Of a stretch of 47,303 bases of DNA, positions 37,863 through 45,680 are shown piece by piece. This stretch comes from Prochlorococcus sp. AG-676-M04 (GTDB lineage: Bacteria > Cyanobacteriota > Cyanobacteriia > PCC-6307 > Cyanobiaceae). The DNA lies in NCBI GenBank assembly GCA_003210895.1, contig QCUB01000006.1:1-47303 (forward strand), written 5' to 3'. Position numbers and translations under genes: made by a program. The notes beneath the pieces were generated by a model. That model was not told the DNA's origin and did not search any database. It saw only the letters and a list, made by a program, of their open reading frames with translations. Within the stretch, counting starts at the first letter, position 1. Every line of letters begins with the position of its first letter.

Positions 37863-37911
37863 GATTAACCACTTGTCATATGGTACATGTAAGAGTTAAA
37901 TTTTAATATAT

Positions 37912-37983
<72 letters not shown>

Positions 37984-38001
37984 TTCAATTTCAAATTCAT
38001 C

Positions 38002-38149: not shown

Positions 38150-38211
38150 AGCGAACGACTTGAAATCTTTTAACAGGAGTCTGTTCCTGTGTTTGAATCA
38201 CGCCCTCTCCG
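38147..38211 (+). pseudogene. Degenerate 3' remnant of tRNA-Ser(UGA)
   Basis: GAAGCGAACGACTTGAAATC carries the tRNA-Ser anticodon stem-loop with anticodon TGA. A long variable arm follows (CAGGA/TCCTG hairpin), then a T-arm-like GTGTTTGAATCAC and an acceptor-like CCCTCTCCG. The 5' acceptor strand and D stem are missing and the anticodon stem is broken (AACGA against TCTTT), so it cannot be functional. Such 3' tRNA fragments mark one end of tRNA-targeting integrative elements. Identification is by eye. Confidence 0.55.
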
Positions 38212-38584
38212 TATTTCTATTCTTTATTCCCCACATCCCAAAGTAATTCTGACCCCTCTCCTTCGGAGAATCCTTTACTTCTGCATGGACTCCTTCCTCC
38301 CACCTCTGGAAGAGGTCTGAACCTCCATGATTCTTAATTAGGTTATGTAGAGTCATAGAGTCACTAGAACCTTTCTGAGTGGGGAATTGACACCCTCCAT
38401 GACATTTAAAAATATATGTATCTCGTTTAGGTGACTGGAATATTGAAGATCTTTTGTTACAAACTGGACATTTTAGTAAGTAATACTTATTATCTCCAAA
38501 TCCATATTGTTTGATTAACCTATCTCTGCAATTAAGAAACTGATTTAGATAATTAGTTTGATTATATATTGGTTTAAGTAACAT
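38198..38584 (-). CDS. Zinc-ribbon protein, primase CHC2-like
   Basis: 128 aa. LLKCPVCNKRSSIF near residue 37, then YIFKCHGGCQF, gives CxxC-x19-CxxxC with an S-S-I-F stretch between, like the CHC2 zinc domain of DnaG-type primases or phage helicase-primases. The rest of a primase is absent. The stop codon lies inside the tRNA-Ser remnant on the other strand, so the C-terminal residues NTERA are encoded by former tRNA sequence. It is probably a mobile-element replication protein or its remnant. Confidence 0.6.
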   Translation of the reverse strand: MLLKPIYNQTNYLNQFLNCRDRLIKQYGFGDNKYYLLKCPVCNKRSSIFQSPKRDTYIFKCHGGCQFPTQKGSSDSMTLHNLIKNHGGSDLFQRWEEGVHAEVKDSPKERGQNYFGMWGIKNRNTERA

Positions 38585-40448: not shown

Positions 40449-40778
40449 TCATTCTTCCTTTTCAAGAACATATTTGGTCATTAAGTTCAATGTGTTCATG
40501 CATTTATCTGCATACGTGATGAGATTAGACATTACTAATCCTTCTCCCTTGGTAAGTGCAATATTCTCTGACCAGTAACTGCAATAGTCCATGTTCTTAT
40601 CCCATCCTTCATCTCTCCCATACTTAATCTCTCTAGTTTCTTTTACTTGTTTCCAAAAGGATTCAACATCTACTTTTGTAGTGATATTTTTATCAAATTT
40701 TTCTGAATAAACAGGGGTTACAAAAGAACTCAAAATTAGAGCATAAAAGAATATATTGGATAATCTTTTTATCTTCAC
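40449..40778 (-). CDS. Small exported protein coupled to the recombinase
   Basis: 109 aa from a GTG that overlaps the recombinase stop (GTGA). A signal peptide is clear (MKIKRLSNIFFYALILSSFV, cleavage near VYS-EKF). The mature part is helical and has two cysteines (MDYCSYW and ADKCMNT) that could form a disulfide. The family is not recognised. An exported protein translated from the same transcript as a site-specific recombinase is unusual; cargo of the element is likely. Confidence 0.65.
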   Translation of the reverse strand: MKIKRLSNIFFYALILSSFVTPVYSEKFDKNITTKVDVESFWKQVKETREIKYGRDEGWDKNMDYCSYWSENIALTKGEGLVMSNLITYADKCMNTLNLMTKYVLEKEE

Positions 40779-41371
40779 TTAATTCCCACCTCTACTTTTT
40801 CATTATCAGCAATAATTCTTCTAATGGTTGCCAATCCTAAACCAGTTTGCTCTCTAATACTTCTATAACTTTCGCCTTCATCTCTTAATCTAAGAACTAA
40901 TTTTTCTTTTTTCTCACTTGTTTTTGGTCTACCACCAAGAGAAAGATTGTTTTCACGTCTGTAATCAACACTCATCTGCACACGTTCGCTGATCTGCTCA
41001 CGCTCCACCTGATTTAGTCCCGTTAATAAACCAATAAGAACAGGTGCGAACTTACCAAGTGCCTCAAGGTTTACCAATCCATCAAGAGTAATAACATTGA
41101 TGCCTTCTGCTTGTAAGTCATTTAATCTAGTAATTACTTCAGTTTGGGTTCTTCCTAGTCTTGAGAGAGAGCAAAGTTTAAGGGTATCGCCTTTCCTTAG
41201 TGATGCTAAACACTTCATTAGTTCAGGTCTTTCTTTTTCTGTCTTTCTTGTGCTTATTGTTTCAGAAAATATTTGATCACAACCACTTTCTTGTAACTTA
41301 GAAATCTGAGGATCTAAAACCTGAGTTCCATTGCTACTGCTGATCCTAGCGTATCCAATCACTTTGTTCAT
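40775..41371 (-). CDS. Serine recombinase (resolvase/invertase family)
   Basis: 198 aa. VIGYARISSSNGTQVLDPQI carries the nucleophilic serine region. CDQIFSETISTRKTEKERPE, LRKGDTLKLCSLSRLGRTQT with the active-site Arg cluster, and the E-helix (LLTGLNQVEREQISERVQMS) follow in the normal order. A C-terminal helix-turn-helix is present (GGRPKTSEKKEKLVLRLRDE, then SIREQTGLGLATIRRI). The size is that of small resolvases/invertases, so it could resolve dimers or invert DNA in the island. A promoter and inverted repeat lie right upstream. Confidence 0.92.
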   Translation of the reverse strand: MNKVIGYARISSSNGTQVLDPQISKLQESGCDQIFSETISTRKTEKERPELMKCLASLRKGDTLKLCSLSRLGRTQTEVITRLNDLQAEGINVITLDGLVNLEALGKFAPVLIGLLTGLNQVEREQISERVQMSVDYRRENNLSLGGRPKTSEKKEKLVLRLRDEGESYRSIREQTGLGLATIRRIIADNEKVEVGIK

Positions 41372-41374
41372 TTG

Positions 41375-41406
41375 TTTCAGTTACTTATACTGTTACTGAA
41401 ATTATA
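41375..41406 (-). promoter_or_regulatory. Recombinase promoter with overlapping inverted repeat
   Basis: On the minus strand a TATAAT (41401-41406) is followed at once by an inverted repeat whose arms on the plus strand read TTTCAGTTAC (41375-41384) and GTTACTGAAA (41392-41401), one mismatch in ten. The repeat would cover the transcription start, just before the recombinase ATG. This fits autoregulation or a recombination site; which one is not decided by sequence. Confidence 0.5.
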
Positions 41407-41613
41407 CCATAGGAACAACCGAACGCCCTTATTGAAACACTAAATTAAGCAAAAAGTTCAATATTAGCAATTTTTATTAATAGTAAATTGTGTTTTCATT
41501 ACCTTAAGGTTGTTGAAACATAAATTTTAGTCTTTTTCTAAAAATTTCTAATTTGTTTAATAAAATAGTAGGAATATTATTCTACGAATGAGGTACAGAA
41601 TTTTAGAGAAGAT

Positions 41614-41640
41614 AAGTATAAAATAAAAACAATTATTTTT
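41614..41640 (+). promoter_or_regulatory. Shared leader/promoter, copy 1
   Basis: The string AAGTATAAAATAAAAACAAT and the T-rich tract after it precede the first array gene. The same string recurs at 43729 and, with one changed base, at 44659. TATAAA/TATAAAAT is a plausible -10; the start codon is about 25 bp further on. No -35 box is evident. Confidence 0.6.
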
Positions 41641-41646
41641 TGAGTA

Positions 41647-42171
41647 ATGGCAAAAGAAACTACTCAAATAACTCGCTATTACGACGCTGTACTTCCTTAT
41701 GGCAGCGCATTTAAATTTTCAGAGAGGAAATATGAAAGTGATACTGACAAGGATCATGATGTTTCATATTCAAAAGAACATTTTGAATTAGAAAGTTCTA
41801 ACCCTGCCGATACTGTTAAAGTGGCAACTTTTTTGAGAAATAAGCAATACAAACCAAATGAAATTTTAAAAAAAGATCATTATTATGTTTGTGAATTTAC
41901 ATGGCAACCATATAGAAAGATTAAAGAATACAAGAATAGTGAAGATATTACATATGAAGGTACCGAAATTACAGAAACCAGTCATTTACTTTTTTGGATT
42001 TATTGGGATGATGATTTTAGTTGTTGGCAAAGAGCACCTGCATTTGCTTGTAGGAATGCATATTCACATACTGAGGCAGGAGATTGGATGATGAAAGAAA
42101 TTACTTCCAAAGGAAGTGAAGCGCATGATTCCGATTACTTCAAAAATGGAACACTAGAGGTTATTAAGTGA
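41647..42171 (+). CDS. Array protein 1, subfamily A (unknown family)
   Basis: 174 aa, soluble, no signal peptide. It shares an ordered set of motifs with five neighbours: ELESSNPADTVKVATFLRN near residue 49, HYYVCEF near 79, HLLFWIYWDDDFSCWQRAP near 115, an EAGDWMMKEITSKG helix and the FKNGTLEVIK end. It has the longest mid-region of the A group (an insert around residues 85-110). Aromatic-rich β-strands around the WDD suggest a compact domain. I do not recognise it in any named family. It has its own leader copy. Confidence 0.72.
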   Translation: MAKETTQITRYYDAVLPYGSAFKFSERKYESDTDKDHDVSYSKEHFELESSNPADTVKVATFLRNKQYKPNEILKKDHYYVCEFTWQPYRKIKEYKNSEDITYEGTEITETSHLLFWIYWDDDFSCWQRAPAFACRNAYSHTEAGDWMMKEITSKGSEAHDSDYFKNGTLEVIK

Positions 42172-42199
42172 AATGCTTTATGGTCTTATTTTTTAACTA

Positions 42200-42673
42200 A
42201 TGGGGAAAGAGACTTATCTTATAGAAGAATATTGGCATGATGAGGTGACTGCTTATTGTACGGCGTTCGGTATTTTGGGTGAGAGAGAAGAACCAAAAGA
42301 AGGTTTTGATCAATCAACTGACTTTAATCATCTAGAGAGTTCTTTGCCACCAGATACTATTCAAGTCGCAACTTTTTTGAACAAAGAATACTCCACAAAA
42401 AAAATATATTTTTATGTTTGCTTATTTACTGAAAAAAATTCGAAAACGCATCAAGAAAAATATTCATATTCACTCTTCTCTATAAGGTGGGAAGATAGTA
42501 TTAGTCTCTGGGAATTAATTCCTTGGTATTCTTGTTCTGTAAAATCTGAACAACCTCAACCATCTTTACATAAAGAAGCAGCAAATTGGATGATAAAAAC
42601 AATGACTACTGATGGTTGTCTAATTGCTACAGTAGAAGACTTCAAAAAAGGAAAACTAGAGATATTAATTTGA
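42200..42673 (+). CDS. Array protein 2, subfamily A
   Basis: 157 aa. N-terminal EEYWHDEVTAYCTAFGILGE, then LESSLPPDTIQVATFL, FYVCLF, LFSIRWEDSISLWELIPW, the KEAANWMIKTMTTDGC helix and FKKGKLEILI. Residues E and D in WED replace the first D of WDD in array protein 1. It lies 28 bp after array gene 1 with no leader copy, so it is probably read from the same transcript. Closest in the window to array protein 3, with shared DNA around CAAAAAAAATATATT. Function unknown. Confidence 0.72.
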   Translation: MGKETYLIEEYWHDEVTAYCTAFGILGEREEPKEGFDQSTDFNHLESSLPPDTIQVATFLNKEYSTKKIYFYVCLFTEKNSKTHQEKYSYSLFSIRWEDSISLWELIPWYSCSVKSEQPQPSLHKEAANWMIKTMTTDGCLIATVEDFKKGKLEILI

Positions 42674-42777
42674 ATATTTCTCACCTAATCAACTTTACTT
42701 TTTCGTCAGTTTTTATTTGACATCAGAACTAAACTTAGAGACATGAAACATTCTTTTATAGTTTTATTTGTTGAGTA

Positions 42778-43242
42778 ATGGTAAATGAACCTTATCAAAT
42801 AACAGAATATGTTCACGATCAGGTTATTGCTCATTGCACTGCTTTCGGACTTATAGGTAATGAACCTAAAGAAGATATAGATAATTTAATTGATTTTTAT
42901 GAATTAGAGAGTTCCAATCCACCGGATACTATTCAAGTCGCAACATTTTTTTTGGAAAAAACCTCCACAAAAAAAATATATTATTATGTCTGCTCTTTTC
43001 CGGAAGAACCTTTTAAAGCAAATCATCAAGAAGGATATTTACTTTTCTCTATTATGTGGTTGGATTCCGACAACTACTGGTCAAGAGTCCCATGGCATAG
43101 TTGTTCTGTATCATCTGAACTACCTCTCCCACCTTTACATAAAGAAGCAGCAAATTGGATGCTAAAAAGAATAACTACAAAAGGTTGTTGGAATGCTGAA
43201 GCGGATTTCTTCAAAATGGGCAAACTAGAGATATTAATTTGA
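42778..43242 (+). CDS. Array protein 3, subfamily A
   Basis: 154 aa. EYVHDQVIAHCTAFGLIGNE, ELESSNPPDTIQVATFFLEK, YYYVCSF, LLFSIMWLDSDNYWSRVPW, KEAANWMLKRITTKGC and the ending MGKLEILI. It is the nearest sibling of array protein 2 by eye. The 104-bp spacer upstream shows no full leader copy but its TTGAGTAATGG start context is identical to that of array gene 1. Downstream of its stop lies a truncated start of another paralog (separate entry). Confidence 0.72.
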   Translation: MVNEPYQITEYVHDQVIAHCTAFGLIGNEPKEDIDNLIDFYELESSNPPDTIQVATFFLEKTSTKKIYYYVCSFPEEPFKANHQEGYLLFSIMWLDSDNYWSRVPWHSCSVSSELPLPPLHKEAANWMLKRITTKGCWNAEADFFKMGKLEILI

Positions 43243-43252
43243 AGGTAATAAA

Positions 43253-43282
43253 ATGAAACTGATTTTAAATTTCGATTTATAA
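43253..43282 (+). pseudogene. Truncated 5' end of a subfamily B array gene
   Basis: ATGAAACTGATT... gives MKLILNFDL and stops after nine codons. Its start and upstream bases (ATATTAATTTGAAGGTAA) align with those before array gene 6, whose protein begins MKLIECNSQF. It therefore looks like the remaining start of a lost subfamily B copy. Very short, so chance similarity of the coding part is possible; the 18-bp upstream identity is stronger evidence. Confidence 0.45.
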
Positions 43283-43298
43283 AATAAAGAATCCTCAA

Positions 43299-43724
43299 AT
43301 GTCTTATCTAAAATCTTGGATTACTTTTGGAGAAAAAATGGAAATTGGCGAGTGCGAAGAAGTTTACTATTGGGAACATGCTATTTACCCAGGTTACACC
43401 GAAGATATTTGTTTTTTGCTCCGTAAACTTGATAAGGAAAATTTTTCTCTTTCTTTAGCAACACCTCGCCGCCTATCTCTCATAGAGGATATTGAAGTAG
43501 AAGATGAAGACGATCCTTTCGTTGATACGATAGATGGAGAAGATGTTAGAAAGCAATTAGGAGAATACTATATTGGTTACGACTATGACTCGTACCCAGA
43601 TCCAGATGTTGAAAATCAAGTTACTTTTAATAAATTTGATGAAGCAAAAATAAATTTATGGTTTAAAAAAAATAAGACGCCTTTTTTATTAGAACATATA
43701 GAACCAGGGGTAAATACTATATAA
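43299..43724 (+). CDS. Acidic island protein inside the array, 141 aa
   Basis: Very acidic in the centre (IEVEDEDDPFVDTIDGEDV) with many Tyr/Asp residues (YYIGYDYDSYPDPD). Soluble, no signal peptide. It lacks the DT, VC and WDD motifs of the array family, so it is an unrelated or highly diverged member. The C-terminal FDEAKINLWFKKNKTPFLLE looks like an ordered helix. Function unknown. It lies between the truncated start and the second leader copy. Confidence 0.62.
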   Translation: MSYLKSWITFGEKMEIGECEEVYYWEHAIYPGYTEDICFLLRKLDKENFSLSLATPRRLSLIEDIEVEDEDDPFVDTIDGEDVRKQLGEYYIGYDYDSYPDPDVENQVTFNKFDEAKINLWFKKNKTPFLLEHIEPGVNTI

Positions 43725-43728
43725 ATTA

Positions 43729-43753
43729 GGTATAAAATAAAAACAATTATTTA
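43729..43753 (+). promoter_or_regulatory. Shared leader/promoter, copy 2
   Basis: GGTATAAAATAAAAACAATT matches copy 1 (41614) over TATAAAATAAAAACAATTATTT except for the base flanking the 5' side. It precedes array gene 4. Confidence 0.6.
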
Positions 43754-43759
43754 TTGCAG

Positions 43760-44323
43760 TTGGGAAAAGTAAATTCTCAAATACATCGGTTTCACGCTCC
43801 TATAGATGCTTTAGTATCTGCTTTCCACAGTGGTTTATTGGAGAAACTCAATAAAGAATTCTTTATGCATGAGTCAAATTCAAATGACCATTTTGAGTTA
43901 GAAAGTTACAACACTGCTGACACGATTCCAGTTGCAACTTTTTTGAGAAATGAGCAATTACCAGATGAAATTATCAAAAAACAATATTTATATGTGTGTT
44001 CTTTTGAAAGGAAAGCAACATTAGGAGGTAGAGAAAAATTTAAGGATTACTTAGACAATGGGATGGACATTTTGGAAGCATTAGAGAAGAGTAATGAAGG
44101 TCCCGAGATTATAAAAACATGTCATTTGCTTTTTGAGATTCGGGGTGATCGGTGGAAGAATAATGATGACATTAAGTGGATGAGACTTGCTCTGTACGCT
44201 TGTGAAGATGCATCTTCACATCAAGAAGCAGCAGAGTGGATGATGAAAGAACTCACGACCAAAGGGAATGAAATGTACGACGCTGATTACTTCAAAAAAG
44301 GAACACTAGAAATATTGATTTGA
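43760..44323 (+). CDS. Array protein 4, subfamily A
   Basis: 187 aa from the second of two in-frame TTG codons; this choice aligns LGKVNSQ with MGKETYL of array protein 2. The track starts two codons earlier. Motifs: ELESYNTADTIPVATFLRNE, LYVCSF, HLLFEIRGDRWKNNDDIKWM, EAAEWMMKELTTKG and FKKGTLEILI. The WDD site is rearranged (RGDRWKN), and a helical insert follows YVCSF (KFKDYLDNGMDILEALEKSN). It is the longest member. Confidence 0.7.
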   Translation: MGKVNSQIHRFHAPIDALVSAFHSGLLEKLNKEFFMHESNSNDHFELESYNTADTIPVATFLRNEQLPDEIIKKQYLYVCSFERKATLGGREKFKDYLDNGMDILEALEKSNEGPEIIKTCHLLFEIRGDRWKNNDDIKWMRLALYACEDASSHQEAAEWMMKELTTKGNEMYDADYFKKGTLEILI

Positions 44324-44491
44324 AGAAATCAAAGATATTAAAACCACCAATAGAATATTAGAAAAATAAATTTCTCTAAACTTGTGTGTCTTTAATCATT
44401 CAATTTTGTTTCTGTGAATTTCTAAGAATTTCTTGTTGCTATAGTGGATATACCAGAATCACATAAATAATCTAAATTCCAGGATTTTGAT

Positions 44492-44644
44492 ATGAGTTAT
44501 CAGTACAGACCTAAAAGCAATCAGGAAGAACACAACGAAATGATGGAGGACGAGGAAAGGTATGAGAGAATGATGCTTTCCAATAAGAACACAGAGGAGA
44601 CTCAAGTATTGAAGAAATTACAGGACTCTTCTGAAGACGAATAG
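44492..44644 (+). CDS. Acidic micro-gene, 50 aa (not in ORF track)
   Basis: An ATG ORF encodes MSYQYRPKSNQEEHNEMMED, then EERYERMMLSNKNTEETQVL. It is highly charged, probably helical or disordered. It occupies most of the space between array genes 4 and 5. No family and no clear ribosome-binding site; the competing minus-strand ORF here looks like a shadow. Moderate support only. Confidence 0.4.
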   Translation: MSYQYRPKSNQEEHNEMMEDEERYERMMLSNKNTEETQVLKKLQDSSEDE

Positions 44645-44658
44645 AATTTAAAAAAATT

Positions 44659-44680
44659 AAGTATAAAATAAGAACAATAA
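44659..44680 (+). promoter_or_regulatory. Shared leader/promoter, copy 3
   Basis: AAGTATAAAATAAGAACAAT differs from copy 1 by one A-to-G change and is followed by a longer 20-bp spacer to the ATG of array gene 5. Confidence 0.6.
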
Positions 44681-44699
44681 TTTCAGTTAGATATTTAAT

Positions 44700-45179
44700 A
44701 TGGACTCGCAAGAATTTAATTTTGAAGAAGAATTAACGAAACTTGTATTTGGGGATGATTTAGAATTTATACATGGAGAGGAATTGGAATTCGATTTTGA
44801 ACAACAGGATGCCTTTGAGTACAACAACCCAGTCGATACTGTGTGTGTTGGAAGTTATTCCGAAATAATACAAGGAACTGCTCATGGTGACTGGAAGTGT
44901 GAAAGTGATTATTATGTTTGTAAAGTTTCCAAAGAAAATGTAAAAGAATTGCAAAAAATGAAATTTCTGCAAGATCTAAAAGGTGGAGATATATATGTGC
45001 TTTTTTCTATAAGGTGGGATGATAATTGGTCGAAATATTTTAGGCAAATTTATTTAGTGAAAGAATGTGATTCTATGGAGATAGCAGAAAAATTATTACC
45101 CAGAGAATTTGCACAGGACCGTATTAAGGGTGAAGATCCTGGAGTTTATTATGATTTTCTAAAAAAATTTTTAGTTTAA
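44700..45179 (+). CDS. Array protein 5, subfamily B
   Basis: 159 aa. An acidic N-terminus with FEEELTKLVFGDDLEF and a duplicated HGEELEFDFEQQ stretch precedes EYNNPVDTVCVGSYSEIIQG, DYYVCKV, VLFSIRWDDNWSKYFRQIYL, an EIAEKLLPREFAQ helix and the tail YDFLKKFLV. Order and spacing of DT, VC, LFxIxWDD and C match subfamily A, but the C-terminus differs (FLKKFLV instead of FKKGxLEILI). Its middle is nearly identical in DNA to array gene 6. Function unknown. Confidence 0.72.
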   Translation: MDSQEFNFEEELTKLVFGDDLEFIHGEELEFDFEQQDAFEYNNPVDTVCVGSYSEIIQGTAHGDWKCESDYYVCKVSKENVKELQKMKFLQDLKGGDIYVLFSIRWDDNWSKYFRQIYLVKECDSMEIAEKLLPREFAQDRIKGEDPGVYYDFLKKFLV

Positions 45180-45181
45180 GA

Positions 45182-45199
45182 ATATTAATTTGAAGGTAA
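45182..45199 (+). repeat. Scar of a subfamily A gene end before array gene 6
   Basis: ATATTAATTTGAAGGTAA here is identical to 43231-43248, where it encodes the ILI-stop end of array gene 3. Array gene 5 already stopped 3 bp upstream, so at this place it is non-coding. It is the footprint of a recombination that placed a subfamily B gene behind a lost subfamily A gene. Confidence 0.6.
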
Positions 45200-45203
45200 A
45201 ATT

Positions 45204-45680
45204 TTGAAACTAATTGAATGTAACTCACAGTTTGAAGAAGAATTAACGAAGATCGTATTTGGCGATGATTTGGAATTTATTCATTCTCAACATGTTTTTG
45301 AGCAAAGTTGTTTATTTGAGGATTACAACCCAGTCGATACAAAATTTGTAGGGAAATATTCCGAAATAATACAAGGAACTGCTCATGGTGACTGGAAGTG
45401 TGAAAGTGAGTATTTCGTTTGTAGTGTTTCAAAAGAAGATATTCAAAAATTGCAAAAAATGAAATTTCTGCAAGATCTAAAAGGCGGAGATATATATGTG
45501 CTTTTTGAAATAGGTTGGGATGATAATTGGTCAAAATATTTCCGATATATTCATCTATTAGCACAATGTGATTCTATGGACTTAGCACAAAAATTTTTAC
45601 TTAGAAAATATGCACAAGATGAAATCAAAAATCAACCTTCTAAAGGTTTCTATGATTTCCTCAAAAAATTTTTAGTTTAA
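45204..45680 (+). CDS. Array protein 6, subfamily B
   Basis: 158 aa from TTG. FEEELTKIVFGDDLEFIHSQ, DYNPVDTKFVGKYSEIIQGT, YFVCSV, VLFEIGWDDNWSKYFRYIHL, a DLAQKFLLRKYAQDEI helix and YDFLKKFLV. Two long DNA blocks are shared with array gene 5, while the N-terminal and C-terminal parts differ much more, a gene-conversion-like pattern. It is probably translated from the array gene 5 transcript. Last array member. Confidence 0.72.
   Translation: MKLIECNSQFEEELTKIVFGDDLEFIHSQHVFEQSCLFEDYNPVDTKFVGKYSEIIQGTAHGDWKCESEYFVCSVSKEDIQKLQKMKFLQDLKGGDIYVLFEIGWDDNWSKYFRYIHLLAQCDSMDLAQKFLLRKYAQDEIKNQPSKGFYDFLKKFLV

Follow-up and report, generated by a model that had tools for sequence, protein, structure and literature searches.

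Prochlorococcus cells are among the most abundant photosynthetic cells on Earth, and their flexible genes are kept and exchanged in genomic islands. We analyzed a 47,303-nt stretch of Prochlorococcus sp. AG-676-M04 (contig QCUB01000006.1; hereafter the window) from an assembly of 70 contigs that is 72% complete. On its reverse strand lie a gene for a small serine recombinase, an overlapping gene for a putative exported protein, and an upstream region containing a predicted promoter and three predicted recombinase sites; a tRNA-Asn gene marks the island boundary. The features, in window coordinates, are:

37911–37984, forward strand: tRNA-Asn, island boundary; a recombinase-bearing island occupies the same tRNA-Asn site in genome G043
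40449–40778, reverse strand: 109-aa putative exported protein (K/R-containing N-terminus, hydrophobic stretch and VYS|EK, read by eye)
40775–41371, reverse strand: 198-aa small serine recombinase, resolvase type (Pfam Resolvase match, conserved columns, dN/dS)
41373–41403, reverse strand: predicted res site III, AATTTCAGTAACAG...GTAACTGAAACA, over the expected transcription start; geometry conserved
41401–41406, reverse strand: predicted promoter −10 box TATAAT, extended TGGTATAAT, read by eye; same position in relatives
41412–41439, reverse strand: predicted res site II, two direct-repeat half-sites, TGTTTCAATAAGGG + CGTTCGGTTGTTCC; fixed spacing, covariation
41491–41520, reverse strand: predicted res site I, probable crossover site, TGTTTCAACAACCT-TA-AGGTAATGAAAACA; 14+2+14 bp dyad conserved in nine loci

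The recombinase matches the Pfam family PF00239 (Resolvase; E 3.9e-26) and combines a resolvase domain, the catalytic serine and arginines and a C-terminal helix-turn-helix (HTH) at a length within the ~180–210 aa typical of small serine recombinases. The HTH_7 score is 20.6 bits, below its cut-off of 23.8. Among solved structures, Tn3 resolvase (5cy1) aligns nearly end to end (E 8e-15) and the Gin invertase over most of the protein (E 6e-19). Gin is thus the nearest solved relative by score, so that sequence alone allows either a resolvase or an invertase; names of PHROG and NCBIfam matches also include invertase. Homologues with 70–100% identity were found in 8 of 266 Prochlorococcus genomes, the source genome included, giving nine recombinase loci with the window locus counted and two in G043; the genomes compared are single assemblies, many of them partial. 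The catalytic set R9, S11, R48, R71 and R74 is invariant in these loci, while the equivalent of D67 is a serine (S70). Comparison with a 95%-identical relative gave dN 0.039 and dS 0.79, which indicates that the protein is under purifying selection. The search method used detected no relative in IMG/VR, and the phage matches among those listed were below 35% identity. In genome G158 (L036, 588–1026 from the recombinase ATG), the recombinase frame, read on past its TGA, runs open into the following gene, yielding 344 aa containing one TGA; read-through, or a fusion of the recombinase with the membrane-anchored-looking downstream protein, is conceivable.

Downstream, the recombinase stop (TGA, 40777–40775) overlaps the GTG start (40778) of the 109-aa reading frame as GTGA, confirming at 40775–40778 the overlap described in the initial annotation. 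The coupling that it described did not hold as a conserved link. Homologues of the 109-aa protein occur in six other genomes, none of which carries a close relative of the recombinase, so the pairing appears incidental, and a role as conserved functional partner was rejected. In most of the nine loci the downstream gene likewise starts within the resolvase stop or a few bases from it, and the gene differs. By this comparison the exported protein is interchangeable cargo rather than a conserved partner, and the gene behind the resolvase would share its operon.

Upstream of the gene, ~150 bp are conserved across the nine loci, which lie in different Prochlorococcus islands within otherwise mostly unrelated flanking DNA; the common unit begins 0–8 bp outside site I. 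Each locus contains six copies of one half-site, arranged as an inverted pair (site I), a direct pair (site II) and an inverted pair (site III). The central dinucleotide of site I is TA (41505–41506), as in most of the nine loci. In all nine, 90–91 bp separate the start of site I from the site II core and 35–36 bp separate the site II core from site III, with spacer sequence that drifts; sites I and II are about 81 bp apart, centre to centre. The region reads as a res of Tn3/Sin type with three predicted dimer sites. Its order, I-II-III-gene, all within ~150 bp 5′ of the gene, is that of Tn3, but the subsites depart from the Tn3 pattern: sites III and I measure 31 and 30 bp, respectively, and site II is direct rather than inverted. 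This conserved site II lacking the usual inverted symmetry counts against reading the locus as a resolvase with its res. A GGGTGT..GGTTGCT motif was considered as a −35 box or host-factor site and set aside, since its TGT part covaries with the subfamily and fits a direct-repeat half-site, and since it persists in solitary res regions that have no recombinase gene. IMG/VR yielded no exact site I and no exact core of such a solitary res; matches there to the core pattern, which had no half-sites around them, were dismissed as chance.

The near-perfect 10-bp inverted repeat next to the −10 box, also noted in the initial annotation, is present at 41375–41401 (arms 41375–41384 and 41392–41401, 9/10 complementary, 7-nt loop), with TATAAT at 41401–41406 overlapping the edge of site III. 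Both −10 box and repeat recur in relatives located in other islands, indicating that the arrangement is more than chance. The repeat now appears as the promoter-proximal third of a ~150-bp region that also contains the dyad at 41491–41520 and the half-site pair at 41412–41439. It had been raised as a possible recombination core, to be checked by strain comparison; that comparison instead places it as accessory site III and puts the probable core ~100 bp upstream, at 41491–41520. The accompanying suggestion of autoregulation, or of action on the recombinase's own promoter, fares better: with site III lying across the −10 box and the expected start, it is likely that the recombinase regulates itself and acts on its own promoter region, the repeat fitting a recombinase-binding site over the promoter.

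Half-sites and the putative DNA-recognition helix change together. TGTTTCA half-sites accompany the helix GLGLATIRRII, TGTGCTA half-sites GVAVATIRRII, and TGTGG half-sites GVAVKTIRRII. Half-sites matched better inside a locus (4.86/7 vs 3.19/7), the best value among 7776 relabelings of the three subfamilies. The covariation is strong but small: it covers three subfamilies, one of which is a single locus, with half-sites placed by hand before the test. Six half-sites changing together, with the helix in step, form the pattern expected of a recombinase with its own multi-site res. The matched subfamilies may also provide a natural specificity series for serine recombinases.

Tyrosine integrases are known movers of Prochlorococcus islands, and resolvase genes of the present family were found in islands of this kind. 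The complete genome G043 has a direct-repeat-flanked 5.9-kb island at tRNA-Ser, and G158 a direct-repeat-flanked 9.5-kb island at tRNA-Cys, each with a recombinase and a tyrosine-type integrase; one integrase was assigned from a weak Pfam match of a homologue and the other from an IRHT-type motif. The window covers the tRNA-Asn side of its island, the contig ending at 47303. Adjoining the tRNA-Asn gene, at 38198–38584 (reverse strand), is a 128-aa zinc-finger-like protein (CPVCNKR...CHGGC), similar to one in G043's island and possibly a primase-type remnant. In G043 itself, two different tRNA genes each hold a resolvase-bearing island (L037, 134–152 kb; L035, 622–641 kb); res–res recombination between them would rearrange the chromosome.

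We then compared strains at site I. In G146 a module termed U1 lies left of res; G119 and G092 share U1 (~99% over 725 bp), and their similarity to G146 stops just past the central TA of site I. In G103 a U2 module, 90–98% identical in bins to U2 left of G043's res, is joined to the right half of a solitary res, where G048, G015 and others have a different gene; in this one genome the switch falls inside site I, between its positions 14 and 18 (centre 15–16). Both natural junctions switch within a few bp of the site I centre, the candidate crossover point, with little or no common sequence on one side. Two centre-precise junctions are few and count as support, not proof. Off-centre left junctions occur as well: for the natural U2 end, divergence sets in at position 5, and the G021 junction lies near position 8. 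Such junctions at the outer edge of site I indicate that not every junction is a crossover product and that other processes contribute.

Solitary res regions, comprising sites I and II without a recombinase gene, were detected with a sequence model of the region in G006, G015, G021, G048 and G184, and in truncated form in G232 and G248; G103, found through the U2 search, is the eighth such genome. Where measured, site II lies at the same distance from site I as in a full res. Where placement could be seen, they sit at an island end, ~2.4–4 kb from the tmRNA gene or at a greater distance if extra DNA intervenes. Left-hand genes at these sites differ by strain (in G048, L056, 581–701 downstream of the U2 junction; L068–L074; L118), and across all sites the modules adjoining site I include U1, U2, c17, cluster 3 and an integrase-like gene. 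In G048 the end of U2 is similar to site I, but the resemblance extends into the beginning of cluster 3. An integron-like gene-cassette model was not supported, as no module had a clear site on both sides.

Taken together, these data make it probable that the locus encodes a serine resolvase carried by the island together with its res, probably self-repressed, that resolves direct copies of the island (multimers). The sequence itself shows the protein family, the conserved multi-site region, covariation of half-sites with the HTH, constant spacing, the breakpoints at site I and the solitary res; that the protein binds, represses and catalyses, and that its selected role is multimer resolution, is what we infer. 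Resolvase dimers would bind site I (crossover, TA centre), site II (direct half-sites) and site III (over the promoter), and occupancy of site III would repress the recombinase gene. In a tandem or multimeric island, two res in direct repeat would synapse, be cut at the site I TA and lose the intervening DNA. One full res per island and no island multimer were seen, so the direct-repeat substrate is hypothetical. Occasional res–res exchange between different islands may, as a by-product, swap the modules left of site I. Alongside the integrases, a further site-specific system whose crossover point is mapped would offer a testable cause of some island gene reshuffling.

The balance between these two activities could be reversed. 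Recombination between islands, with solitary res as landing sites, would then be the main role and resolution secondary, the enzyme serving as a dedicated system whose TA crossover exchanges genes left of site I among strains and tRNA loci. Several points count for this reading: homology in all nine loci has site I as its left limit, several left modules adjoin it, solitary res occur in eight genomes without the recombinase, and two junctions are centre-precise. On the other hand, Tn3-type res are strongly biased against recombining separate molecules (PMC9943657), neither res-flanked cassettes nor two-site intermediates were found, and some modules were first captured away from the centre. 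We regard a dedicated exchange role as possible yet unlikely; the SGI1-like island architecture favours the view that multimer resolution was selected for and that module exchange follows from it.

A purely regulatory protein may have a precedent in the same genus. Roughly 200 of the 266 genomes (L009–L030; e.g., G001:C1:1534343–1534900) carry a core serine-recombinase paralogue with ~41% identity to the recombinase, in which IGYARAID/ATH replaces the catalytic serine motif and other catalytic arginines are gone (DRAFSNR). Its near-invariant HTH (TQTGIALSTIRRVI) and a conserved, repeat-rich upstream region with TGTTCT/AGAAC motifs are retained, and the paralogue resembles a resolvase that has become a DNA-binding regulator. 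If the present recombinase had followed that path, it would be a DNA-binding repressor that has lost recombination, and the junctions would stem from homologous recombination or horizontal transfer. Retention of S11 and the arginines under purifying selection, and centre-precise junctions with little or no common sequence on one side, make this improbable.

Beyond site I, the window contains a tandem array of paralogous small genes (41647–45680; 141–189 aa, no family assigned), with a leader, TAAGTATAAAATAAAAACAAT, repeated at 41608, 43722 and 44653. Proximity had made the recombinase a candidate for rearranging this array, a suggestion that was rejected; the two most likely adjoin by chance. 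A search of the window gave one res at E 7e-31, with the runner-up at 0.014, and the source genome assembly (~72% complete) likewise yielded one. Of 266 genomes, 33 have relatives of the array genes, in varying copy number and for the most part with no recombinase; in G043 the array, at 42 kb, is separated by about 100 kb or more from the recombinases (142 and 630 kb). A DNA invertase flipping the promoter or the array, to which the Gin match and the invertase names would point, is very hard to reconcile with the lack of a second, inverted site in the window and source assembly, with array homology to other strains that starts only at 41633, >100 bp outside site I, and with array genes that mostly occur without the recombinase.

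Several features of the resolvase–res locus can be placed against known systems. Tycheposons are Prochlorococcus islands that integrate at tRNA genes, and the resolvase-bearing islands (two in G043, one in G158) resemble them in their tRNA positions and tyrosine-type integrases; a limited literature search found no paper on a serine resolvase/res in tycheposons, which is weak evidence. Gin and Hin invertases act on two inverted crossover sites that flank a segment, with an enhancer, whereas the window and the source assembly show one res. Tn3-type systems work exclusively on a pair of directly repeated sites in supercoiled DNA. Site order and promoter overlap are as in Tn3, and the direct-repeat site II is as in Sin (PMC9943657). 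With Tn3/γδ TnpR–res the locus further shares a predicted 2-bp crossover core, three predicted dimer sites and a predicted promoter inside res; it differs in that no transposase or terminal repeats were seen, site II half-sites are direct, site III is 1 bp longer than site I (3 bp shorter in Tn3), and res spans ~150 bp rather than ~120 bp. Like Sin, where an HU-type protein bends the DNA between the sites, it has a long I–II spacer that could take a DNA-bending protein; unlike Sin, which has two sites only, it has an additional site III over the promoter. The closest architectural parallel may be SGI1 of Enterobacteria, in which a Tn3-like resolvase/res, once restored, clears multimers of the island and the region upstream of the resolvase receives the cargo (PMC12217951). 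Both systems combine an island with its own tyrosine integrase, a small serine resolvase and a multi-site res 5′ of the gene, with cargo accumulating upstream. The Prochlorococcus version differs in host, in its ~150-bp res with I–II centres ~81 bp apart and in its direct-repeat site II; control of island multimers by the resolvase, demonstrated for SGI1, is the role that we propose for its Prochlorococcus counterpart.
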